From NCBI GenBank assembly GCA_004296885.1, contig SCVN01000019.1, positions 62,001 to 126,000 of the forward strand: 64,000 nt of DNA. Direction: 5' to 3'. Numbering within the stretch: position 1 is the stretch's first letter; each line of letters begins with the position of its first letter. Of the stretch, positions 7,748 to 48,778 are shown in pieces. The notes below the pieces were generated by a model. It was not told the DNA's origin and made no database searches. It saw only the letters and a list, made by a program, of their open reading frames with translations. Both the position numbers and the translations under genes were made by a program. Source of the stretch: Nitrospirota bacterium. GTDB taxonomy: Bacteria > Nitrospirota > Nitrospiria > Nitrospirales > Nitrospiraceae.

Positions 7748-8443
7748 ATGACAGGTTCCATAAAAACACTGGTAGGAATCAGGCCTATAACAGAGGGGCT
7801 TACACTGCCTGAAGATTTTCCCAATATTGCTTATGAGTCAATTCGCAACCGCATTGCGCCCAAGATAACTAATCCCTCGGATCAGTTAGATCAATTCCTA
7901 GGTGCCTGGAATGCTGTTCTATATAGATTCATGTCGTGCGCAGAACATGATGCAAATTTCTCTGAGTGCATTAAGAAAGCGGGGAATGCTCCTCCTAGGG
8001 TTGAGCGATATATACAGGAGAAGGAGCTTTTTAACTTTTTTATGAACGGATTGGCGACTATTGAAAGTCTCTATTACGCGCTATGCGTGTTAGGTTCATT
8101 GTTAAATGCAAAGAACTTCCCGCTAGATGATGCAAGAAACATTAATCCTAAGAAAACCGCCAGTCAGTTTCAAATGGCATTTCCATCGGAAAGTTTGACG
8201 GCCATTCTCAATCGCACAGCTGCTTCCAGTGATCTCCAAGAATGGAAGGATATACGAAATGCTCTTGCTCATCAGACCGCACCTGGGCGAGTTGTTGATA
8301 TTGGCCCCAGAGGAGAGGCTCTTTGGAAGCTGAATAGAATGCCAGTAAATAGTGACACCACATCATTAAGACGTGAGTGGCTTGCTAATGCAGTATCAGA
8401 GATAATGTGCGAAGCGGAAACGTTCTCTAGCAACCGCTTTTGA
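7748..8443 (+). CDS. HEPN-like protein in a low-G+C cassette
   Basis: A 231-residue protein, largely helical, with no signal peptide. Near residue 175 it carries WKDIRNALAHQ, which contains the R-N-x3-H (R-x4-6-H) motif of HEPN RNase domains. The earlier segment (FFMNGLATIESLYYALCVLG) fits the first long HEPN helices. HEPN proteins are commonly RNases of toxin-antitoxin, abortive-infection or effector systems; whether this one cleaves RNA is inference. Base composition and codons (ATA, TTT, AAT) differ sharply from the pur genes, indicating transfer. It is probably co-transcribed with the next membrane protein. No recognisable antitoxin is adjacent. Confidence 0.6.
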   Translation: MTGSIKTLVGIRPITEGLTLPEDFPNIAYESIRNRIAPKITNPSDQLDQFLGAWNAVLYRFMSCAEHDANFSECIKKAGNAPPRVERYIQEKELFNFFMNGLATIESLYYALCVLGSLLNAKNFPLDDARNINPKKTASQFQMAFPSESLTAILNRTAASSDLQEWKDIRNALAHQTAPGRVVDIGPRGEALWKLNRMPVNSDTTSLRREWLANAVSEIMCEAETFSSNRF

Positions 8444-8513: not shown

Positions 8514-9029
8514 ATGGCAAATTGGGCATTCTGCACAGTAGGAGTTTTAGGGCTCGCCATCCTAGGCCTCTTTCTATGGTTTGTGTTTGTGCGGAAGGAA
8601 AAGTTCGATGCTCCACTCTTGGGTCTTTTGACATTAAGTTTATTGCTAATCCTAATGGCGCTTGTGAGGCCAGATTCGATTAAATACGGTGGGATGGAAT
8701 TCAATACTATCAAGCAAGATGCAAAAGATATAAACAGCAAAGCAAAGGAAACCGTGCAGCTAGCCTTAGAAACCACGGCCATGTTGATCTGGAATGAGGG
8801 CCGATTGGGCGCTGGCGGAAAACACAATGAAGAGATCGCAACCAATCTACTCAGAGAACTATACGGTGATAAGGCTCTTCAGTATCGTTATGTGCTTCAG
8901 AAAAAGGGGATATTCCTGACTCCAAAGCCAGACCTTCTGAAAATCCCAGATGCGGAATTTCCAAAAGAAGTTCGGTCCCCCTTGTACGAGAAATATTTGA
9001 AAAACCTCAGCTTAGCTGACGGCAGATAA
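8514..9029 (+). CDS. two-helix membrane protein paired with the HEPN-like gene
   Basis: A 171-residue protein with two N-terminal hydrophobic helices (WAFCTVGVLGLAILGLFLWF and LLGLLTLSLLLILMALV) and a cytoplasmic helical part containing a short coiled coil (residues about 65-90) and a charged C-terminal region. The ATG at 8514 has GAAGGGGG about ten bases upstream; an in-frame ATG at 8472 would add 14 residues. Codon use is low-G+C like the HEPN gene, so the two form one acquired cassette. The family is not recognised. A membrane-anchored partner for an RNase-like effector is one possible reading. Confidence 0.6.
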   Translation: MANWAFCTVGVLGLAILGLFLWFVFVRKEKFDAPLLGLLTLSLLLILMALVRPDSIKYGGMEFNTIKQDAKDINSKAKETVQLALETTAMLIWNEGRLGAGGKHNEEIATNLLRELYGDKALQYRYVLQKKGIFLTPKPDLLKIPDAEFPKEVRSPLYEKYLKNLSLADGR

Positions 9030-9032
9030 AGA

Positions 9033-9086
9033 ATGAAAATACAGGCCCCGCATATCATCAAAGACCTCATCGCGCAGCATCATTGA
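9033..9086 (+). pseudogene. 17-codon vestige of the original purL start
   Basis: ATG at 9033 opens a frame reading MKIQAPHIIKDLIAQHH and stops at 9084-9086. Its IxKDLIAQH part equals the start of the intact PurL ([11 protein letters not shown]). The nucleotide match is 26 of 27 between 9054-9080 and 9646-9672, in the same reading frame. Removing one repeat and the segment between them would give an in-frame PurL beginning MKIQAPHI. This looks like the ancestral purL 5' end separated from its gene by an insertion. Confidence 0.7.
9054..9080 (+). repeat. 27-bp direct repeat, left copy
   Basis: Matches 9646-9672 at 26 of 27 positions (mismatch at 9058). The two copies flank the GNAT gene. Confidence 0.85.
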
Positions 9087-9118
9087 ACCTGCGACGAAAG
9101 AAGAAGCGCATCGGGGCT

Positions 9119-9624
9119 ATGGGCGATGGAGAGGGAGAAGTCGCGCGGCAGGCGGTGTCCATCGAGTATCGGCTTGCCGTGCCCGCTGATGAACAGGCCG
9201 TTGCATCGCTCCTCGAACGAGCAGGGTTGTCGTCCGAAGGAATCGCCCCGCATCTCCCGCACTTTGTGGTGGCGGTCGCAGGGGGAAGGCTTGTCGGAAC
9301 GGCGGGATGCGAGATCCATGGCAGCGGGGGGCTGTTTCGGTCGTTTGCGGTCGATCCGGGGTATCGCGGGCAAGGGATCGGTGCGCAACTCTATCGGCTG
9401 GTGGTCGCCCATGCGCGGTCGGCTGGCGTGCGTGACGGGTATCTGCTGACGGATACGGCCGAGGGCTTCTTTGCGAAGTTCGGGTTCCAGCGAGTGACGC
9501 GAGACGCGGTGCCGCGAGCCATTCGGGAAACCGAGCAATTTCGGATTCAATGTCTTCCCGCGTCGGTGTGTATGGGACGGTCATTCGGCAACGCAGAGTC
9601 GGACATGGAGAGGCAGGCGAGGGC

Positions 9625-30131: not shown

Positions 30132-31628
30132 ATGGCTGTACGCACCTTAATGGTTCAGGGTACGGCGTCGCACGTGGGCAAGTCCGTGCTCGTGACGGCC
30201 CTCTGCCGGCTGTTCGCGCGGCGCGGGGTCAAGGTCGCGCCCTTCAAGGCGCAGAACATGTCCAATAATTCCTTCGTCACGCCGGACGGAAGGGAAATCG
30301 GGCGCGCCCAGGCGGTGCAGGCGACGGCTTGCCGGTTGGCCCCTCGGACGGATTTCAATCCGGTGCTGATCAAGCCCTCCGGCGAACGGAGCGCCCAGTT
30401 GGTGGTGAACGGGCTGGTGGCCGGGCGGTTGGAGGCCTCCGATTTTGGCCTGGTTAAGCGAGCGCACTGGTCTGCCGTTTGCGAGGCCTTTGCCCGGTTG
30501 GCCGGGGAGTTCGACGTGGTCATTCTCGAAGGAGCCGGCAGCCCGGCCGAAATCAATCTGCGCGACCGGGACATCGTGAATATGGCCATGGCACGGGAAG
30601 CGCAGGCGCCGGTTATCCTGGCGGGTGACATTGATCGGGGCGGGGTCTTTGCGGCACTGGTGGGGACCTTGGCTTTGCTTGAGCCGGAGGAGCGTGCCCA
30701 CGTCAAAGGATTTCTGGTCAACAAGTTTCGCGGCGATGCGGATCTGCTGACGCCGGGCGTCAAGATGGTGGAAGCCCGGTGCGGGATCCCTTGCCTGGGC
30801 GTGGTGCCCCATTGGCACGATCTCCAGGTGCCGCAGGAAGACTCGCTGGGATGGGAAGACCGGCATGACGCCACGTCCCGGCTGACGGATACCCTGACGG
30901 TCGGCGTCGTGGACGTGCCGGCCATTTCGAATTTCACCGACTTCGACGCGCTGGCTTGTGAACCGGATGTCCGTCTGGTCCGGGTCGCCGGGCCGATCAC
31001 CCAGCCGCTCGATGCGTTGCTCTTCCCCGGCACCAAGAACACGGCCGAAGCGCTGCGTTTCGTGAAGGCACGGACGCTCGACCAGGTTGCCCGGCAGGTG
31101 CTGGCTGCCGGGGGAAAGATCGTGGGGCTCTGCGGAGGGTTTCAACTGTTGGGCAAGCGGATTCTCGATCCGGACCGGGTCGAATCGTCGGAGGGCGAGC
31201 TTGAAGGCTTGGGGCTGCTGAATGTGACGACCAGCTTTGCTCGAGACAAGGTTACGGTGGGGGTGAGCGGACGTCACCCGGCGAGCGGCTCTCCGGTGGA
31301 AGGGTACGAAGTGCACATGGGCCGAACCAGTTTGGGCGCAGGAGCCGTTCCTTGGTTGGAGGTCCGGGCCCCCGGTGAGGCAGCCATGCGGCCTGAAGGG
31401 GCCAGCTCGGAGGACGGTCTTGTGCTCGGCACCTACGTTCACGGACTCTTCGATGCGGTGGCCTTTCGACGGGTCTTTCTCAATTGGCTCCGTGAGGCGC
31501 GAGGCTGGGCTCCCCTGCCGGTGCAGCCGGGGACTTCCCTGGATGAACAGATCGACCGGCTGGCCGATTTTATGGCCAAGCATCTGGACCTGGCGGCCAT
31601 TGATGCGATTCTTGAGCGGGGGCTCTAA
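30132..31628 (+). CDS. cobQ: cobyric acid synthase
   Basis: Amidates side chains b, d, e and g of adenosylcobyrinic acid a,c-diamide to give adenosylcobyric acid (CobQ/CbiP). It has 498 residues. The N-terminal domain has MVQGTASHVGKSVLVTALCR and APFKAQNMSNNSFVTPDG. The C-terminal glutaminase has Cys334 in GLCGGFQLLGKRI and the TYVHGLFD His region. ATG start just after a heptamer hairpin. Confidence 0.95.
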   Translation: MAVRTLMVQGTASHVGKSVLVTALCRLFARRGVKVAPFKAQNMSNNSFVTPDGREIGRAQAVQATACRLAPRTDFNPVLIKPSGERSAQLVVNGLVAGRLEASDFGLVKRAHWSAVCEAFARLAGEFDVVILEGAGSPAEINLRDRDIVNMAMAREAQAPVILAGDIDRGGVFAALVGTLALLEPEERAHVKGFLVNKFRGDADLLTPGVKMVEARCGIPCLGVVPHWHDLQVPQEDSLGWEDRHDATSRLTDTLTVGVVDVPAISNFTDFDALACEPDVRLVRVAGPITQPLDALLFPGTKNTAEALRFVKARTLDQVARQVLAAGGKIVGLCGGFQLLGKRILDPDRVESSEGELEGLGLLNVTTSFARDKVTVGVSGRHPASGSPVEGYEVHMGRTSLGAGAVPWLEVRAPGEAAMRPEGASSEDGLVLGTYVHGLFDAVAFRRVFLNWLREARGWAPLPVQPGTSLDEQIDRLADFMAKHLDLAAIDAILERGL

Positions 31629-31630
31629 CA

Positions 31631-31702
31631 GTGAAATCGGTCAGGCGTCAGGGGGGAGGCGTGAAGGCTAAAAGGAAGAGCCCAAGCCGCTCACGTTTCA
31701 TG
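31631..31702 (+). repeat. heptamer-word array at the start of cobU
   Basis: Words GGTCAGG, CGTCAGG, GGGGAGG, CGTGAAG form the left arm; CGCTCAC and GTTTCAT form a short right arm. The reading frame stays open through it, so it may be read as an N-terminal extension of CobU. Confidence 0.65.
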
Positions 31703-32227
31703 TCTTCCCGGCGCGGGCGGCTGATTTTCATACTGGGCGGAGCCGCGTCGGGAAAGAGCGAGACAGCCCTTGCGATGGCGGGTAACGCCGGTCCCAGGGC
31801 CTTCGTAGCGACCGGGCAACCCTTGGATGGCGAGATGGCCGAGCGTATCCGCCGGCACCAGGCCTCGCGGCAGGCAGACTGGCGGACCGAAGAAGTGCCG
31901 GTGGATCTGGCCGGCTGGTTCGACAAGCAGGGCCGGACTTATCGGATCATCCTCGTGGATTGTCTGACCCTCTGGCTGAGCAATCTGCAAGGCCGCGGCG
32001 TTCCCGAATCGCAGGTGCCGGCGCTGGTTTCCGAGCTGCTGCGCGCGATCAGGGCCGTTAAGGCACGGGTCGTGGTTGTCAGCAACGAACTGGGCCTGGG
32101 GCTGGTGCCGACGGATGTCTCCGCCAGGCGGTTCCGGGACCTGGCGGGGCGGGTCAACCAACAGTTTGCTGCGGAGGCGGATGAGGCCTATTTTGTGGTC
32201 AGTGGTCTGCCGGTACGAATCAAGTAA
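31700..32227 (+). CDS. cobU: adenosylcobinamide kinase / adenosylcobinamide-phosphate guanylyltransferase
   Basis: Phosphorylates adenosylcobinamide and activates it as the GDP derivative for CobS. P-loop FILGGAASGKSETAL, the guanylylated-histidine region RIRRHQASRQADWRTEE, VDCLTLWLSN and VVVVSNELGLGLVP are visible. ATG 31700 gives 175 residues and the usual short N-terminus, but lacks a Shine-Dalgarno. GTG 31631 or 31661 would add a basic extension encoded by the heptamer array. Confidence 0.92.
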   Translation: MSSRRGRLIFILGGAASGKSETALAMAGNAGPRAFVATGQPLDGEMAERIRRHQASRQADWRTEEVPVDLAGWFDKQGRTYRIILVDCLTLWLSNLQGRGVPESQVPALVSELLRAIRAVKARVVVVSNELGLGLVPTDVSARRFRDLAGRVNQQFAAEADEAYFVVSGLPVRIK

Positions 32228-32257
32228 CGTGATCAGACAGCAAGGAGTTGCGAGAGG

Positions 32258-33310
32258 ATGCTGAAGGAAGCCATCGATGCGGTCCGGCCAGTTGATCGGG
32301 AGGCCCAGGCTCGTGCGCAGGCTCGTCTGGATCGGCTGACCAAGCCGGTCGGGAGCCTGGGGCGGCTGGAAGAGCTGGCTGCTCGGTATGTCTCGATTAC
32401 GGGCAAGATTCCCCCTCCCATGCCGCGAGCCGCGATCTACACCTTTGCCGCCGATCACGGAATAGCTGGCGAGGGGGTCAGCGCTTACCCCAGCGCCGTG
32501 ACTCCACAAATGGTGTTGAACTTTCTTCGGGGCGGCGCGGCGGTCAATGTCCTGGCCCGTCACGCGGGGGCCGAGGTCCGGGTCGTGGATATCGGTGTGG
32601 CCTATGACTTCGGGCCAATGCCGGGATTGATCGGCCGGAAAATTGCCGCCGGGACCAAGAATTTCTCCGTGGAGCCGGCCATGAGCCGTACCGAGGCCGA
32701 GTGTGCCTTGCTGGTCGGCGTGGAACTGGCTGCGCAAGCGGCGCAAGAAGGCATCGGTCTCATCGGCACGGGCGACATGGGGATCGGCAACACGACCCCC
32801 AGTGCGGCGATCACCGCCGTTGTGACAGGGACGCCGGTCGCCGTGGTGACCGGTCGGGGCACGGGCATTGATGACGAAGGGTACAGGCGTAAAGTTGCGG
32901 TCATTGAACGGGCTTTGGCGCTGCACCGGCCCGATCTTCACGATCCGTTGGATCTGCTGGCCAAGGTAGGCGGGTTTGAGATCGCCGGGCTCGCCGGACT
33001 GATCATCGGGGCTGCCGGCCACCGGATTCCGGTCGTTCTGGACGGCTTCATTTCCGGCGCCGCGGCGCTGGTGGCGGCGGCCTTGCAACCGCTCTGCCGG
33101 GAATTCATGATGGCCTCCCATCTCTCCGTGGAGCAAGGGCACCAGGCTGTGCTCCGCCACCTGAACCTCAAGCCCTTGTTGGCCCTGGATCTCCGTCTTG
33201 GCGAGGGGACCGGCGCCTGTTTGGGCATCGGTCTCGTACAGGGTAGCCTCAAGATTCTGACCGAGATGGCCACTTTCGGCGAAGCCGGCGTCTCAGAACG
33301 TGAAAGGTAA
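32258..33310 (+). CDS. cobT: nicotinate-nucleotide--dimethylbenzimidazole phosphoribosyltransferase
   Basis: Makes alpha-ribazole phosphate from nicotinate mononucleotide and the BluB product. It has 350 residues. Motifs: LDRLTKPVGSLGRLEELA, TFAADHGIAGEGVSAYP, GTGDMGIGNTTPSAAI and the catalytic Glu in LRLGEGTGACLG. The ATG is preceded by GAGAGG. It follows cobU by 30 bases. Confidence 0.95.
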   Translation: MLKEAIDAVRPVDREAQARAQARLDRLTKPVGSLGRLEELAARYVSITGKIPPPMPRAAIYTFAADHGIAGEGVSAYPSAVTPQMVLNFLRGGAAVNVLARHAGAEVRVVDIGVAYDFGPMPGLIGRKIAAGTKNFSVEPAMSRTEAECALLVGVELAAQAAQEGIGLIGTGDMGIGNTTPSAAITAVVTGTPVAVVTGRGTGIDDEGYRRKVAVIERALALHRPDLHDPLDLLAKVGGFEIAGLAGLIIGAAGHRIPVVLDGFISGAAALVAAALQPLCREFMMASHLSVEQGHQAVLRHLNLKPLLALDLRLGEGTGACLGIGLVQGSLKILTEMATFGEAGVSERER

Positions 33311-33327
33311 ACAGTAAGACGTGAATG
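33299..33327 (+). repeat. single-arm heptamer-word array, cobT-cobS
   Basis: Words CGTGAAA, GGTAAAC, AGTAAGA, CGTGAAT in exact period seven, covering the end of cobT. No complementary right arm is seen. Confidence 0.65.
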
Positions 33328-33362
33328 GGAAGACCGGTGCATCGGGCCCCTCATCATGTACC

Positions 33363-34124
33363 ATGCACTGTGTGCGGCCGTTCGTGATCGCCTGGCAGTT
33401 TCTGACCGCAATCCCGGTGGCCCGTTCCTGCGACGATCCAACGCCGGAGGAGCTGGCTTCGTCGATGGGCTGGTATCCGCTCGTCGGCTTGATCCTGGGA
33501 GTGATCCTTGCGGCAAGCGATTTCCTGCTCGCCCAGGTCTTCTCGGACCATGTCGTGAACGGGTTGCTCATCGTTTTGCTGGTCGTCTTGACCAGGGGCC
33601 TGCATCAGGACGGCTTGGCCGATACCCTCGATGGGTTGGCGGGCGGGCGGAGTCCGGTCGAACGGCTGGCGATCATGCGCGATGGTCGGATCGGCGCGAT
33701 CGGCGCCACGGGCCTTGCGCTGGTTTTGGGGCTCAAGTATGCGGGCTTGACGGACCTGCCGGACGAGGGGCGGCTGTCCCTCCTGCTCTGTCTGCCCGCG
33801 GCCGGACGATGGGCCATGGTGGTGAGCGCGATCTCGGCTCCCTATGCACGATCCGAAGGAGGCCTGGCCCAACCGTTCATTGCGCACCTGTCGATGCGGC
33901 ATGTGGCCTGGGCCACCGGCTTGCTGGGACTCGCGCTTCTCTGGGCCGTCGGTCCGGTCAGCGCCTTGACCTGTCTGGCTGTTCTGGGGATCGCGGTCTA
34001 TGCCATGACCCTCTTCGCCCGTCGGCTCTTCGGCGGCATCACCGGCGATACCTTGGGCGCGGTCAATGAAATCGTGGAAGTCCTGTTTCTAATGGCGGCT
34101 CCGTTATTCTTCGGTCAGCGATGA
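33363..34124 (+). CDS. cobS: adenosylcobinamide-GDP ribazoletransferase
   Basis: Integral membrane enzyme joining adenosylcobinamide-GDP with alpha-ribazole (phosphate) to give cobalamin (phosphate). The CDP-alcohol-transferase-like acidic motif is LHQDGLADTLDGLAGG, and a second conserved stretch is RDGRIGAIGATGLALVLGLKY. About six helices. ATG 33363 gives 253 residues and the usual short lead before FLTAIPV. GTG 33321, in the heptamer words, would add 14 residues. The end overlaps cbiB in ATGA. Confidence 0.93.
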   Translation: MHCVRPFVIAWQFLTAIPVARSCDDPTPEELASSMGWYPLVGLILGVILAASDFLLAQVFSDHVVNGLLIVLLVVLTRGLHQDGLADTLDGLAGGRSPVERLAIMRDGRIGAIGATGLALVLGLKYAGLTDLPDEGRLSLLLCLPAAGRWAMVVSAISAPYARSEGGLAQPFIAHLSMRHVAWATGLLGLALLWAVGPVSALTCLAVLGIAVYAMTLFARRLFGGITGDTLGAVNEIVEVLFLMAAPLFFGQR

Positions 34125-35074
34125 CCGGGTCGTCGCTTCTGCTGGCCTGTCTGCTCGATGCCTGGTTGGGCGATCCCCGTTGGTTTCCCCATCCGGTGCG
34201 GCTCATGGGCCGGTGCATCGCCCGGTATGAAGCGACGATCCGGCGAGTCGCGCAGCGTCCGGTGGGGCTTCGATTGGCCGGTCTTGCGCTCGCGATTGGT
34301 TTGCCGATCGGCGTCTGGGCCGCCGGGTGGGGCCTGATCCGGCTGGCCGGGTTGGTGCATCCGCTGGCGGCGACCGGTGTGGAAATCCTGCTGGCCTATA
34401 CCACGCTGGCCGTCAGAGACCTGGCCGATCATGCGGCCCTCGTCTTACGCGCACTACGGGGCAGTACGTTAGAGGAGGCACGAGCCGCAGTCTCTCACAT
34501 CGTGGGGCGTGATACCGACTCCTTGTCTGAACCCGACGTGGTGCGGGCGACGGTGGAGACCATCGCCGAAAGCACGGCGGATGGCGGGATCGCTCCGCTT
34601 TTTTATCTGGCGCTGGGCGGGGCGCCCCTGGCGCTGGCCTTCAAGGCCGTCAGCACCCTGGACTCCATGGTGGGGCATCGCGATGCACGCTATCGAGACT
34701 TCGGGTGGGCTTCCGCCCGCCTGGACGATGCGGCCAATTGGATTCCGGCGCGCCTGGCTGCCTGTTTGCTGGTTCTGGCTGGGGGACTCACCAGGTTCCG
34801 TGCCGACCTGGTCGTGCGTGCCTGGTCCATTGTCATGCGCGACGCGGGCAAGCATGAGAGTCCCAACAGCGGCTGGCCCGAGGCGGCCATGGCGGGAGCG
34901 TTGCAAGTCCAGCTCGGCGGTCGGAACGTCTACGAGGGGATCGTCATCGAGCTGCCACGCATCGGAGACTCGGGCCAGGCCTTGCAGACGGATCATATCC
35001 GACAAGCGTTGGTCCTGATGGCGACGGCTTCGGTCTTGGCGACCGGGTTGGCGGCCGCCTGGCGGTTCGCATGA
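34121..35074 (+). CDS. cbiB: adenosylcobinamide-phosphate synthase
   Basis: Membrane protein that attaches (R)-1-amino-2-propanol phosphate to adenosylcobyric acid (named CobD in the aerobic-pathway nomenclature). It has 317 residues; motifs LLDAWLGDPRWFPHPVRLMG, VGRDTDSLSEPDVVRATVET and MVGHRDARYRDFGWASARLDD are typical. ATGA overlaps at both ends indicate tight coupling with cobS and cobD. Confidence 0.94.
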   Translation: MTGSSLLLACLLDAWLGDPRWFPHPVRLMGRCIARYEATIRRVAQRPVGLRLAGLALAIGLPIGVWAAGWGLIRLAGLVHPLAATGVEILLAYTTLAVRDLADHAALVLRALRGSTLEEARAAVSHIVGRDTDSLSEPDVVRATVETIAESTADGGIAPLFYLALGGAPLALAFKAVSTLDSMVGHRDARYRDFGWASARLDDAANWIPARLAACLLVLAGGLTRFRADLVVRAWSIVMRDAGKHESPNSGWPEAAMAGALQVQLGGRNVYEGIVIELPRIGDSGQALQTDHIRQALVLMATASVLATGLAAAWRFA

Positions 35075-36165
35075 AGACGGTTCCTGCCCATGGCGGCAAT
35101 GTGTACGAAGCCGCTCGCGCGAGCGGGCGCCCGATCGGCCGGTTGACGGACTTCAGCGCCAGCATCAATCCGCTCGGTCCCTCACCGGCTGCCGTCCGGG
35201 CCTTGCGGCATTCGCTGCCCCAGCTCGTCCATTATCCGGACCCAGACTGCCTGACGCTCAGGCGAGCCCTGGCGAAACGTTGGCGTCTGGCGTCCGACCA
35301 GATCCTGGTCGGGAACGGTTCGACCGAATTGATCCATTTGCTCCCGCGCGCCCTTGGGATTCGCCATGCGCTGCTGATCGGCCCGACCTTTTCAGAATAT
35401 GCGCGCGCCGTGGCATTGGCCGGAGGGCGGATCAGCTATCTGCATGCCAGGCGGAGCGAGGGCTATCGTCCGCCGCTTGAGCGGGTGCTGCACGCGATGC
35501 AGCACAGCCGAAAGCCGGTGGATGCGATCTTCCTCTGCAACCCCAACAGCCCGACCGGTCGGGCCGTCGGGGCGGCATCGGTGCGGGCCCTGGTGCGGGC
35601 GGCGGCTCGGCGCCGCATTCGGGTTATCCTGGATGAGACGTTTGTTGAGTATTGCGCGGAGCGGTCGGTGCTCCGTGACGTCCCGCGCTCGGCCAATCTG
35701 CTGGTCCTGCGAAGCTTTACTAAATTCTACGCCATGCCGGCCCTTCGTCTCGGCTACCTGGTTGGAGCCGTGCCGCTCATTCAACGGGTCCGTGCGCTCC
35801 AGCCCCCCTGGTCGGTGAATACGCCGGCCCAGGTGTTCGCCCTGGCCGCTCTTGGAGACCAAGGCCACGCCAACCGCAGCCTGGCCTCCGTGCAACAGGA
35901 GCGAGCCCGCTTCGTTATGAACCTGAAGGCCCTGCCAGGGGTGACGGTCTATCCTTCGGAGGCCAACTTCCTGCTGCTGGAATTGCCGATGGCACTGTCC
36001 GCTCGCGTCTGTGCCGAAGCCTTGGCCCGCCGAGGCCTGCTGATCAGGGACTGCTCCTCGGTGCCCGGTTTGAATCGACGAACGGTTCGAGTGGCGGTAC
36101 GCCGCCGGATGGAGAATTGCCGTCTGGTGACCGCCCTGTGCAAGTGGATCGGAGCGCAAGCGTGA
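35071..36165 (+). CDS. cobD: L-threonine-O-3-phosphate decarboxylase
   Basis: PLP-dependent aminotransferase-fold enzyme (Salmonella CobD; CobC in Pseudomonas nomenclature) producing aminopropanol phosphate for CbiB. It has 364 residues. N-terminal DFSASINPLGPS and YPDPDCLTLRRALA, substrate loop CNPNSPTGRAVG, and the PLP lysine in SFTKFYAMPALRLGYLVG are present. HisC is the close paralogue, but the cob-operon position and HGGNVYEAAR start favour CobD. The stop overlaps the cbiZ GTG. Confidence 0.92.
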   Translation: MKTVPAHGGNVYEAARASGRPIGRLTDFSASINPLGPSPAAVRALRHSLPQLVHYPDPDCLTLRRALAKRWRLASDQILVGNGSTELIHLLPRALGIRHALLIGPTFSEYARAVALAGGRISYLHARRSEGYRPPLERVLHAMQHSRKPVDAIFLCNPNSPTGRAVGAASVRALVRAAARRRIRVILDETFVEYCAERSVLRDVPRSANLLVLRSFTKFYAMPALRLGYLVGAVPLIQRVRALQPPWSVNTPAQVFALAALGDQGHANRSLASVQQERARFVMNLKALPGVTVYPSEANFLLLELPMALSARVCAEALARRGLLIRDCSSVPGLNRRTVRVAVRRRMENCRLVTALCKWIGAQA

Positions 36166-36956
36166 CCCGCCGCTCTTCCATCGAAACCCGCTTCCTGGTG
36201 GAGAGCGAGACTCTGCTGATCGACCTGGAGAAGCGGTTGAAGATCCTGTCCTCCGCTTCCTGTCACGGCGGGCTGGTCCGGGCCCGGTACATCATGAACC
36301 ATCAGGTTCCGGCCAATCCGGTCGCGGCGCCATCTGCTCCATCCGGACGCAAGTGGACGGATCCCGCGAAGTACTTGAAGCAAGTGGCCGGCGGGCTGGG
36401 AGTGGTCGGCGAAGCGGTGGCGCTCATGACCGCGGTCCCGATGAAACAACTCGTGACGTTGCGTGAAGAAGCGGACGGTGTGTGGGTCGAAGGGTTTGTC
36501 ACCGTCGGCGTGACCAATGCCGTGCGGGCCGGGGATCCGGTGAAACCGGCGGCGGCGGATCGACACGCCAAGCCTGGCACGATCAACATTATCCTGGTCA
36601 CCAATGCGCGCCTGGCCGATTCGGCCATGGTCGGGGCGGTGCAAGTGTTGACGGAAAGCAAGGCGGCGGTGCTCCTTGCCGCGGGCGTTCCCAGCTGGAG
36701 CGGCCGTCGGGGAGCCACCGGGACCGGCACCGACGCGGTGGTCATTGCCTGCGGAGCCGGCCGGAGTGGCCCGCAGCTCCGTTACAGCGGGACCCACACC
36801 AAGATCGGAGAGCTGATCGGGCGGCTGGTCATGCGGGGGGTGAACGAGGGGCTGAAGCGGTCGGAGCGGTGGTTGAAACGGAGGCTTGCCCAGGGCGATC
36901 GGCAGGCCGCCATGAAAAGAGCTTTCCCGCTTGCAGCGCAAGATAAATCCTTGTAG
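36162..36956 (+). CDS. cbiZ: adenosylcobinamide amidohydrolase
   Basis: Removes the aminopropanol arm from adenosylcobinamide (or from cobamides with unsuitable lower ligands), giving adenosylcobyric acid that re-enters synthesis at CbiB. It has 264 residues. Family-typical segments are VTVGVTNAVRAGDP, GTINIILVTNARL and GATGTGTDAVVIACG followed by YSGTHTKIGELIGR. The GTG start overlaps the cobD stop (GTGA). Last gene of the operon. Confidence 0.88.
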   Translation: MTRRSSIETRFLVESETLLIDLEKRLKILSSASCHGGLVRARYIMNHQVPANPVAAPSAPSGRKWTDPAKYLKQVAGGLGVVGEAVALMTAVPMKQLVTLREEADGVWVEGFVTVGVTNAVRAGDPVKPAAADRHAKPGTINIILVTNARLADSAMVGAVQVLTESKAAVLLAAGVPSWSGRRGATGTGTDAVVIACGAGRSGPQLRYSGTHTKIGELIGRLVMRGVNEGLKRSERWLKRRLAQGDRQAAMKRAFPLAAQDKSL

Positions 36957-37091
36957 CATAAGGCCTTATTTTTGGTATCGCTTGAACGGCGGTACGGTTT
37001 TGTAGAGATGATCGCGTGCTTCGACGAAACGGCTGAAGCACTGATATCTTGCGTGGTCCGGATCCTGGGCCGCACAACCGAGGAGGACATT

Positions 37092-37826
37092 ATGCGAGTC
37101 ACGATTGCCCCAAGCGGCCTGGCGATCGGCCTGTTTGCTGTCTTCATGTGTCTCCCCTGGTCGGCGTTTGCAGCCAATGAGACCGAAACCGCGTTGCTGT
37201 TGATCGAGCTTGTCCAAGCGGGGCGCACGGTCGTTACTGAACATCAAGAGCTACTCAACGATCCTGCCAGGGGTGACAAGGGATTCACGCCGGAATATTT
37301 CGGAGCTAAACTCATCGAAAAATATAGGGACGTGGCCAAGATTGATCTGAGCCGTGCCACACCCTCTCCGCAAACGGGGTTGTTGCTCACGCTGCTGGAA
37401 TCAGGGAAGGAAGTCGTGGCGGAAGCCCAGCCGGTTCTCAATAAGCAGGGCATTGCCTTCAAGGGCTTTATTCCCGCCGCCTGGGGACGAAAAACCGGCG
37501 AGAAGTTCACGAAGAAGACCGGCGTGAAACTGAAACTCACGGCTATGGAATACCGATACCCAGGCAACAAGCCGGATGAGTTCGAGTCCGAGGTGCTCAG
37601 ACAATTTTCCGAGCCTTCCTATGCCAAGGGACGGGAGTTCAGCCGGGTGTTGGTGCAGGACGGCCGGCAGGTGTTGCGGATGATGAAGCCCGAGTATGTG
37701 GGGCCAAAATGCCTGGGGTGCCATGGGGAACCCAAAGGCGAACGGGACAAGACGGGTATGAAAAAAGAAGGGCTCAAAGAAGGGGATTTGGCCGGGGCGA
37801 TCAGCCTGACCATCCCGATTCGCTAG
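37092..37826 (+). CDS. secreted single-heme Tll0287-like (DUF3365) protein
   Basis: A 244-residue exported protein. The signal peptide is APSGLAIGLFAVFMCLPWSAFAA. One c-type heme motif, KCLGCHGEP (C-x-x-C-H), lies near residue 207, and the C-terminus GAISLTIPIR is typical of DUF3365 sensor domains, elsewhere found as ligand- or redox-sensing input domains. AGGAGG precedes ATG 37092. No transmembrane or kinase part is attached. It stands just before the chemosensory cluster, so a periplasmic redox input is plausible. Confidence 0.82.
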   Translation: MRVTIAPSGLAIGLFAVFMCLPWSAFAANETETALLLIELVQAGRTVVTEHQELLNDPARGDKGFTPEYFGAKLIEKYRDVAKIDLSRATPSPQTGLLLTLLESGKEVVAEAQPVLNKQGIAFKGFIPAAWGRKTGEKFTKKTGVKLKLTAMEYRYPGNKPDEFESEVLRQFSEPSYAKGREFSRVLVQDGRQVLRMMKPEYVGPKCLGCHGEPKGERDKTGMKKEGLKEGDLAGAISLTIPIR

Positions 37827-44392: not shown

Positions 44393-44867
44393 AGTCGCCA
44401 CTCCGCTGGCGTCGTTGGTGGTCTTCGTGGTTGGAGGCAAGCGCCTGGCCGCCCGGGCGGAAGAGATCGGCGGCGTGCGTGCCTGGAGCCCGGCGCTCCC
44501 GGTGCCCAGCCGGACTCCATTCATCAGTGCGGTGGTGCGTTATGGGGATGAGGTGCTGCCGGTCTATGACTTGGCAGCCAGGCTTGGGGTGCGGATCGCG
44601 GAAGGTGATCCCCTGTGCCTCTTTGCCAAGCGCCGCGACGGAGTGATGGCGGTCCGTATCGATGCCGAGATCCCGACCTTGCATGCCGTTGACCCTGCCG
44701 GGATTCGTCCTGCGTCGAGCCAGGACCCCGACATGGCCGGGACCTGCATGATCGGAGGGGAAGCGGTCCCGGTGTATTCCTTGGCCACGTTGGGCCTGGA
44801 GGCCAGGCCCAACGGCCCCGCGGTAAGCGTTCATGAAAGGGACGGACGAAAGTCCGCGATGATGTAA
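44361..44867 (+). CDS. CheW-domain protein
   Basis: A 168-residue CheW-like protein: LVVFVVGGKRLAARAEEIGGV, FISAVVRYGDEVLPVYDLAARLG and MIGGEAVPVYSLATLG. It starts inside the end of the preceding gene and stops overlapping the next ATG (TAATG). It is the third CheW domain protein in the cluster. Confidence 0.82.
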   Translation: MLKTPRGPISKVATPLASLVVFVVGGKRLAARAEEIGGVRAWSPALPVPSRTPFISAVVRYGDEVLPVYDLAARLGVRIAEGDPLCLFAKRRDGVMAVRIDAEIPTLHAVDPAGIRPASSQDPDMAGTCMIGGEAVPVYSLATLGLEARPNGPAVSVHERDGRKSAMM

Positions 44868-46591
44868 TGGCGAGAGTGTTGGTTGCGGATGACAGTATTG
44901 CCGTGCGGAAGGTGGCCGAACGTCTCTTAATGGGGGCCGGCCTGGAAGTGGCTTTGGCGGCCAACGCGGAGGAAGCCTTGGCCTGGCTGGCCAGTGAGCG
45001 GCCGGACGTCGTGGTGACCGATGTGATTATGCCCGACAAGAGCGGCTATGACGTGTGCAATTTCGTCCGTCGTCAGCCGGCCTTGTCCGGCACGCCCGTG
45101 CTGTTGATCTCCGGCATCGTCAATGACGAGGTAACCAGGCAAGCCGAGTCCTGCCGGGCCGACGGCGTGCTCAAGAAGCCGTTTCAAGGGACTTCGCTGC
45201 AGGACCGCGTGATCGAACTGTTGCGGAAGCGGGAGGGACAACCAACCGCCCCGGCAATCGCGCCGTCGCCGGTTGAAGCTCTCGTGTCGGCGGCTGCGGC
45301 ACCTGCGCCGGGCCCGGCTGAAATCTCCGTTCCGGCAGAAGTCCAGGCCGTGTCCGCGCCGCCTGTTGTTCCCAAAGTGTATAAGATCACGGAAGAACAG
45401 CTGCAATCGTTCCGTCAGTCCTCTGCTCGGATCAAAGAATTGGAAGGAATGTTGGCAGAGGAGCAGGCCCGGTCGGCCGGCCTGGCCCGGCAGGTGTTGG
45501 GGAACGAAGAGACTCAACGGCGCATCGCGGCCCTGGAAGCCGCCCTTGCCGAAGAACAGGCCAAGTCTTTGCAGGCGGCCCACCAGGCGGAGCTGGCGGA
45601 CCAAGCGGGAAGTCGGATTGTGGAGCTGGAAATGCGGTTGGCGGAGGAACAGAGCCGAGCCGCCGGCGCCGCCGAACAGGCGCAGAAGCTTCTCGATGCC
45701 GAAGCGAGGATTCGCGAGCTGGAGAGCTTGCTGACCAGCGGGCAGAGCCAGCCGGTTCAGGTTGCGCTCCTGACGGAACAGGTGACACAAGGGGAGGGAC
45801 GGATCAAGGAGTTGGAAGCCGGCCTCGAGGCGGAGCGTGTCCGTGCCCAACAGCTTGAGGAGCAGGCCAGGCGTGCAAGCCTGGCTGAGGCGCGTATCCA
45901 GGAATTGGAGGTGTTGCTGGGAGCCGAGCAAGGGCAATCTGCCCGGCAGGCTGAGCAGGCATCCAGATTGACTCAGGCGGAACAACGGATCGTCGAATTA
46001 GAGCAAGCGCTCGCCCAGGAAACTTCCCGTTCGGCCAAGTTGGCGCAGCAGGCGGAAGCAGCGGGGCAGCGTGAGGGCCAGGTCTCGGAACTGGCGCGCC
46101 TACTTGAGGAGGAGCGGGTCAAATCTGTCGGCTTGGCTCAACAGGCATCCCTGGCGGAGGCGTTACAGCAGCGCGTGCAAGCGCTCGAATCCGGGTTGGC
46201 GCAGCGGGCGGGACGGGAGGCTGGTCTGGCTCAACCGGCGTCGGCGACCGGAGACGCCGCGCCACAGATCGCACACCTGGAAGAACTGCTGGCGCAGGAG
46301 CAAACCCGGTCCTCCTATTTGCTCCAACGTTTGCAGCGCACGTCATCCGCACCGCCTTCCGCAGCCCCTTCGGCAAGTGAGGCGGAGGCTGAGCAGAAAG
46401 TGGCCGAGTTCCGTGCCTTGGTGCGACAGGAGCAGGAACAGGCGACCGGTTTGCTGCAGCGAGTGCTGGAAACCGGAGAGGCTGTCTCAGCCATGCAATT
46501 GCGGCTGGAGGAGATCGAAAAACGTCTGGCCGGAATAGTCGGATCGGATGTCCCGGGGCGCAGCCCAGGCCCTGCCGCGTCCGATGCCTGA
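44867..46591 (+). CDS. response regulator with ten-fold 31-residue coiled-coil repeat
   Basis: A 574-residue protein. The N-terminal receiver (1-120) has VADDSIAVRK, phospho-acceptor Asp52 in VVVTDVIMPDKSG and VLKKPFQG. After an Ala/Pro linker (about 125-170), residues 188-497 consist of ten consecutive 31-residue units, each beginning R/Q-I/V-x-E-L-E and continuing L-A-E-E-Q. Register is kept through all ten copies. A C-terminal coiled segment ends KRLAGIVG. This should be a long rod attached to a CheY-like domain. The function is unknown; it is coupled to the CheW gene upstream. Confidence 0.85.
   Translation: MARVLVADDSIAVRKVAERLLMGAGLEVALAANAEEALAWLASERPDVVVTDVIMPDKSGYDVCNFVRRQPALSGTPVLLISGIVNDEVTRQAESCRADGVLKKPFQGTSLQDRVIELLRKREGQPTAPAIAPSPVEALVSAAAAPAPGPAEISVPAEVQAVSAPPVVPKVYKITEEQLQSFRQSSARIKELEGMLAEEQARSAGLARQVLGNEETQRRIAALEAALAEEQAKSLQAAHQAELADQAGSRIVELEMRLAEEQSRAAGAAEQAQKLLDAEARIRELESLLTSGQSQPVQVALLTEQVTQGEGRIKELEAGLEAERVRAQQLEEQARRASLAEARIQELEVLLGAEQGQSARQAEQASRLTQAEQRIVELEQALAQETSRSAKLAQQAEAAGQREGQVSELARLLEEERVKSVGLAQQASLAEALQQRVQALESGLAQRAGREAGLAQPASATGDAAPQIAHLEELLAQEQTRSSYLLQRLQRTSSAPPSAAPSASEAEAEQKVAEFRALVRQEQEQATGLLQRVLETGEAVSAMQLRLEEIEKRLAGIVGSDVPGRSPGPAASDA
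45428..46357 (+). repeat. ten 93-bp coding repeats (31-residue units)
   Basis: Ten in-frame units starting RIKELE, RIAALE, RIVELE, RIRELE, RIKELE, RIQELE, RIVELE, QVSELA, RVQALE, QIAHLE, each 31 residues. Nucleotide sequence is diverged between units. Confidence 0.85.
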
Positions 46592-48241: not shown

Positions 48242-48778
48242 ATGCCAAAACTTATTTCATCCAGACGTGTGGATAACGAAACAGATCTGGCGAGGCAGTA
48301 CGTCAAGACGCATATTCTCTTTCCGTCGGTGCTTCTGGGTTTCATTATGTTGCTGGCCGGAAGCGCCTCGCTCATCTACCAGTTCATGTTCGAGACCTAC
48401 GGCTGGCAAACGTTTTTCGAGAGCACTGGCCTGCTGCTGCTGGGCGGATTGGTCGGATGGGGTCAAACGAAGTACCACCGATACCTGCTCCGTGAGTACC
48501 CGGGGTATTTTGCCGGCCGGCTGAAGTCGTTTTCGAAGACCGGGCCCAAGCGGCCCAAGAAGGAGTCCGCCGCGCGACCGCCCGAACATCCGGGGCAGAA
48601 CTACGTTCCCTGGCTGTACCTGGGCGGGGTGCTGGTGCTGGTCGGCGCCGCTGTGGTTAGTGCGGTCTTCGGCCATGTCTACTATATGGCGGCGCTGCTG
48701 ATGCCCTGGGCCGGGTTCTTTTGGGTGAAGATGTACGGCTGGCAGGGAGTGATTCCTCAGGGAGAAAGCAAACAGTAA
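48242..48778 (+). CDS. four-helix membrane protein, unknown function
   Basis: A 178-residue protein with helices at about 27-46 (LFPSVLLGFIMLLAGSASLI), 57-73, 124-143 and 147-163, and a basic Pro-rich cytoplasmic loop between helices 2 and 3 (KTGPKRPKKESAARPPEHPG). Family not recognised. It is convergent with lpxD, 21 bases apart. Confidence 0.72.
   Translation: MPKLISSRRVDNETDLARQYVKTHILFPSVLLGFIMLLAGSASLIYQFMFETYGWQTFFESTGLLLLGGLVGWGQTKYHRYLLREYPGYFAGRLKSFSKTGPKRPKKESAARPPEHPGQNYVPWLYLGGVLVLVGAAVVSAVFGHVYYMAALLMPWAGFFWVKMYGWQGVIPQGESKQ

Follow-up and report, generated by a model that had tools for sequence, protein, structure and literature searches.

The open reading frame at 44867-46591 on the forward strand of the window (the whole 64,000-nucleotide stretch of Nitrospirota DNA analyzed here) encodes a 574-aa protein, REC-coil, which we read, with a probability of roughly 0.5, as an output response regulator that can be phosphorylated and that serves a Pil-Chp-like chemosensory system for type IV pili in Nitrospirales. 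Judged from sequence, this reading is built on an intact receiver (REC) active site, helical 31-residue units that occur in variable number, a conserved operon, and a degenerate Hpt protein. The gene belongs to a recognizable kind, in a variant described here for the first time, and is not a single-genome oddity. Its nearest functional precedents, FrzS/AglZ and PilG with FimL, both belong to surface motility, and the operon is probably a controller of surface motility based on type IV pili. An output protein that joins a receiver to a coiled coil, that has an active receiver unlike those of FrzS/AglZ, and that is conserved across the order, including nitrite-oxidizing Nitrospira, offers a handle on possible surface-motility control in bacteria whose motility is barely studied. 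The parts of the protein and the genes of its operon are listed in Table 1.

Table 1. Genes of the chemosensory operon and parts of the REC-coil protein, in window coordinates.
Feature	Coordinates	Strand	Basis or remarks
Single-domain receiver (PilG/PilH/CheY position), 120 aa	37944-38306	+	
CheW, 170 aa	38339-38851	+	
MCP receptor, 634 aa	38889-40793	+	4HB, HAMP, MCPsignal
Hybrid CheA, 960 aa	40823-43705	+	two Hpt, H-kinase_dim, HATPase, CheW, REC
CheW-like protein, 208 aa	43766-44392	+	PF01584
CheW-like protein, 168 aa	44361-44867	+	PF01584
REC-coil: CheY-like receiver (REC), residues 1-120	44867-45226	+	Pfam PF00072, E=5e-22; AlphaFold pLDDT about 90
REC-coil: Ala/Pro-rich linker, residues 121-171	45227-45379	+	low-confidence coil in the AlphaFold model (125-173); variable among orthologues
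REC-coil: N-terminal lead-in of the rod, YKITEEQLQSFRQSSA, residues 172-187	45380-45427	+	ITEEQLQxFRQ conserved in many orthologues
REC-coil: ten tandem 31-residue units, residues 188-497	45428-46357	+	autocorrelation, unit profile
REC-coil: Pro/Ser-containing break of 13 residues (498-510)	46358-46396	+	sequence, AlphaFold
REC-coil: eleventh unit, residues 511-541	46397-46489	+	unit profile score 29 versus at most 3 in shuffles
REC-coil: C-terminal helix and tail, residues 542-574	46490-46588	+	where orthologues carry the conserved C-cap
Hpt-like protein, 342 aa	46641-47669	+	homologous to the N-terminal part of CheA

Residues 188-497 divide into ten 31-residue units with zero indels. Autocorrelation of substitution scores peaks only at shifts of 31, 62, 93, and 124 (0.71 to 1.01, with the next best at 0.13), and the score of 0.94 at shift 31 compares with best scores of 0.09 in 500 composition shuffles and 0.19 in 500 heptad-preserving shuffles. 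The initial annotation had described ten exact repeats here; the spacing is exact as claimed, but the sequences have diverged, with a mean pairwise identity between units of 36% (range 19-52%), and the count missed the eleventh unit that follows the Pro/Ser-containing break. Together with a DNA identity of 46% at a 93-bp shift, this low identity between units indicates that the array is old. Recent tandem duplication within the window gene was considered and rejected, as Tandem Repeats Finder did not report the array of this gene and unit identity is low. With a profile derived from 110 units in the window protein and its orthologues, real units typically score 20-45 and shuffled coils at most 3.0, although these scores are not independent of the scored proteins because the profile was trained on them.

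The unit consensus reads R-[VI]-x-E-L-E-A-x-L-A-x-E-[RQ]-x-R-[SA]-A-x-L-x-x-[QR]-[LAV]-x-x-[LA]-x-x-A-A-x, in which core positions 2, 5, 9, 12, 16, 19, 23, 26, and 30 form nine hydrophobic layers per 31 residues. The resulting 3.44 residues per turn (31/9) is not independent evidence, because a 31-residue period forces the nearest helical harmonic. Core position 12 is a glutamate in 85% of all units and in eight of the ten tandem units of the window protein. The earlier arithmetic of 31 as four heptads plus three agrees with this period and its nine layers, and the register is probably stammer-type; the units do not show the unbroken 7-residue hydrophobic period of a canonical heptad coiled coil. 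The coil region had no match in a sequence search of the PDB, a literature search on coiled coils that repeat every 31 residues with heptads yielded one paper, on Helicobacter CagY, and a literature search for stammers with 3.44 found nothing.

AlphaFold modeling of the REC-coil monomer (11 sequences, mean pLDDT 70, pTM 0.30) places helices at residues 176-234, 245-290, 297-448, 465-493, and 504-559, separated by breaks at about 235-244, 291-296, 449-464, and 494-503. Prolines 296, 457, 466, 496, and 497 belong to the units that begin at residues 281, 436, and 467, and the breaks fall at or near these residues and proline 501, with the exception of the proline-free break at 235-244. The prolines within units and the predicted breaks together indicate an interrupted rod, so that the helical nature of the coiled-coil rod first proposed is supported by prediction while its continuity is not. 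Fusion of this predicted helical rod to a CheY-like domain is borne out by both Pfam and AlphaFold, and the coil would be expected to oligomerize.

The receiver part was found (E below 1e-25) in 125 of 197 sampled Nitrospirales-level genomes and in 18 of 35 genera; the named relatives in the genome collection are Nitrospira and Nitrospirota MAGs, and the best same-genus orthologue is 74% identical. When 49 orthologue sequences were parsed into units (one gene being counted twice, L072 = L095), the spacing between units was exactly 31 residues in 154 of 210 cases, and many of the others either exceeded 31 or 62 by 7, 14, or 21 or were multiples of 31. Loss of the spacing in close homologues had been named at the outset as evidence that would tell against the repeat; it is instead retained there. 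Counting repeats in relatives, a check suggested at the same time, revealed 0 to 11 units per orthologue, the low counts being approximate because some sequences are cut or masked (L092, L100, and L113) and because weak units can fall below the scan threshold. Between close relatives the difference is one of whole units, as seen for two pairs of orthologues that are 86% (L104 and L105) and 78% (L096 and L114) identical and are each separated by one 31-residue gap. With this whole-unit variation, the orthologues form a ready-made series in which any effect of rod length on signaling could be studied.

A rod of this kind could also serve the chemosensory array as a structural element or as a part that sets length, spanning array layers or fixing array spacing, as the initial annotation had suggested. 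REC-coil is encoded with array genes and is predicted to be largely helical, with 342 helical residues that would measure roughly 50 nm at full extension. However, the MCP measures 356 residues between HAMP and residue 600 in 16 of 16 operons (the window and 15 orthologous operons), while REC-coil varies from 225 to 574 aa, some orthologues carry one unit or none, and the predicted helix is broken in several places. We therefore regard this role as very improbable, and it is mainly the constancy of the MCP cytoplasmic length beside a varying REC-coil that leads us to discard an array ruler.

The receiver itself appears fully competent, with D8, D9, D52, S82, K103, and K104 invariant in 48 of 48 receiver sequences. 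In a fold search the AlphaFold model matched REC structures with a target TM of about 0.9, and all of the 50 matches listed align to the receiver. Because the phosphorylation residues are kept in every sequence, the receiver should accept phosphate from the hybrid CheA, and this complete conservation argues for a signaling output rather than a purely structural part. An intact active site is also what a PilH-like phosphate sink or buffer would display, in which the receiver drains CheA phosphate, the coil only multimerizes, and the unit number drifts neutrally, and a unit number that varies, by whole-unit indels among close relatives, would fit such drift. A long rod would be needless for a sink, however, and most orthologues end 28-31 residues past the last unit in a conserved helix (KLGEIAGLASQLG in many genera) that suggests a specific binding end, which leaves a sink as an unlikely explanation.

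The gene order in the window is single-domain receiver, CheW, MCP, hybrid CheA, CheW-like, CheW-like, REC-coil, and Hpt-like, and it is kept in 20 fetched Nitrospirales loci wherever the contig reaches, apart from occasional losses, second Hpt copies, and two exceptions (L066, with most of the operon missing, and L083, with the CheW/MCP match unreported). In the Pil-Chp system, the order pilG-pilI-pilJ-chpA corresponds to receiver, CheW, MCP, and CheA, and the first four genes of the operon follow this order, including the hybrid form of the kinase. CheR and CheB (PilK and ChpB), the usual Pil-Chp companions, did not turn up among the genes assigned at about 36-48 kb of the window, and there are no pilus genes within the operon. 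With three CheA (H-kinase_dim) and four MCP signaling-domain matches in the genome, the REC-coil operon is one of several chemosensory systems there. Two Hpt stretches were found in the CheA of the operon, compared with nine Xpt domains in ChpA (PMC12632253).

The chemosensory setting proposed from the window sequence holds, with CheW-like, MCP, and CheA genes sharing the operon, but the Hpt neighbor lacks a phosphorylatable histidine. The match between this protein and the Hpt region of the CheA from the same operon is at 24% identity (7e-10), and the CheA motif HTLKGSA is replaced by ASLGGSA in the window and mostly by TNLxGSA in orthologues. In 25 of 25 Hpt-like sequences, including one translated with an internal stop (L073), threonine, alanine, serine, or asparagine stands in place of the histidine. 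The AlphaFold model of the Hpt-like protein is weak (pLDDT 62) and was left out of the argument. As no orthologue has a phosphorylatable histidine, the protein resembles FimL, which has a ChpA-N-like Hpt region lacking the phospho-histidine and which also binds PilG and FimV. In Pseudomonas aeruginosa, FimL resembles the ChpA N-terminus and helps bring the regulator PilG to the poles (PMC10519157). A second histidine-less Hpt gene lies downstream of the operon in six loci from several genera (L069, L071, L072, L075, L078, and L079).

The PilT motor that a Pil-Chp system would be expected to have in the same genome is present. Across 41 genomes, PilT scored above the cut-off in 22 of 23 with REC-coil and 8 of 18 others (Fisher p=3e-4), and flagellin was found in 10 of 23 and 4 of 18, respectively (p=0.2); in genomes at least 90% complete the corresponding counts were 18 of 18 versus 5 of 12 for PilT and 9 of 18 versus 1 of 12 for flagellin (p=0.02), all of these p values overstating independence because the genomes are related. 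The operon thus co-occurs better with PilT than with flagellin. The enrichment of flagellin in the more complete operon genomes, and an operon without a pilus gene, would be in keeping with control of flagella, exopolysaccharide, or biofilm rather than type IV pili, with REC-coil as a scaffolded output. We find this doubtful, as flagellin was not found in 13 of the 23 REC-coil genomes, whereas PilT was missed in only one. One reported Nitrospira strain lacks a flagellum but carries mcp, cheWY, and a full set of type IV pilus genes (PMC12542776).

FrzS, a receiver joined to a coiled coil, acts in the type IV pilus (social) motility of Myxococcus xanthus (PMC1974792, PMC4546325). Like REC-coil, FrzS and AglZ combine an N-terminal receiver with a long C-terminal coiled coil and are linked to a chemosensory pathway and surface motility, and their coils also vary in length, from 235 residues in FrzS to 1076 in AglZ (PMC1974792, PMC4546325). 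Their receivers, however, lack a functional phosphorylation site (PMC4546325), which is intact in every REC-coil receiver compared, and they work with MglA, while the MglB (roadblock) family PF03259 is absent from 40 of the 41 genomes, including that of the window. REC-coil therefore falls outside FrzS/AglZ on account of its active receiver and the near-absence of MglB, and the latter also speaks against an AglZ-like MglA/MglB polarity module. PilG resembles REC-coil in that its receiver can be phosphorylated and its operon also encodes CheW, MCP, and hybrid CheA; a FimL-like gene is nearby here. PilG is not known to have a coiled coil, and the PilG/PilH position in this operon is held by the separate single-domain receiver.

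In the output regulator that we favor, the hybrid CheA would phosphorylate the REC-coil receiver, and the C-terminal rod would oligomerize the regulator and extend it by a distance that varies among species. The conserved helix at the end of the rod may bind a partner at the cell pole or at the base of the type IV pilus, and the histidine-less FimL-like Hpt protein would be a likely docking partner of a receiver. A more specific and distinctly speculative version has the receiver, under control of phosphorylation, gate the assembly of an overwound rod (3.44 residues per turn) whose length evolves by whole 31-residue units and sets the distance over which the signal passes from array to pilus.

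Related proteins occur in Acidobacteria (L023-L046), where a receiver and linker are followed by a short C-terminal coil. Their C-terminus resembles one unit (LVKKLQSELxAEREYxxxLE), and they too are encoded in a che locus; unlike the Nitrospirales proteins, they have at most one unit and end at about 30 residues. The acidobacterial unit beats all shuffles against the Nitrospira profile in only two of eight cases. In a tree of 57 receivers, the acidobacterial receivers group with the Nitrospirales ones with 95/97 support, in a group that includes one long-branch row and with generic receivers drawn from the same search. The acidobacterial gene comes after a REC-DUF4388 gene in a cheR-cheA-cheB-cheW locus, DUF4388 corresponding to the PATAN domain. 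Regulators of the PATAN type bind PilB, the motor of the pilus, in Synechocystis (PMC10519157), and this locus therefore favors the type IV pilus reading.

Several minor observations concern the loci themselves. Directly upstream of the operon, at 36972-37826 on the forward strand, lies the gene of a Tll0287-like protein (PF11845, E=5e-24) that contains the heme-binding motif CLGCH and is possibly a periplasmic heme sensor for the chemosensory system. This gene is present upstream in most orthologous loci whose contig extends there. Further upstream, at 30132-36956 on the same strand, are cobalamin biosynthesis genes (CbiA/GATase, DBI_PRT, CobS, CobD/CbiB, aminotransferase, and CbiZ). Downstream of the operon, a 178-aa protein without a Pfam match (48242-48778, forward strand) precedes lpxD on the opposite strand and occupies the same place in most orthologous loci. 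In the same-genus MAG locus L066 (minus strand, 9238-9312), codons 1-25 of the single-domain receiver abut about codon 160 of REC-coil out of frame, and the locus lacks CheW, MCP, CheA, the receiver, and the Hpt gene, through either a genuine deletion or a MAG assembly artefact. In one further genome (G187, contig C20), two receiver matches on the same strand about 0.5 kb apart (7923-8297 and 8760-9134) mark a tandem duplication of REC-coil.
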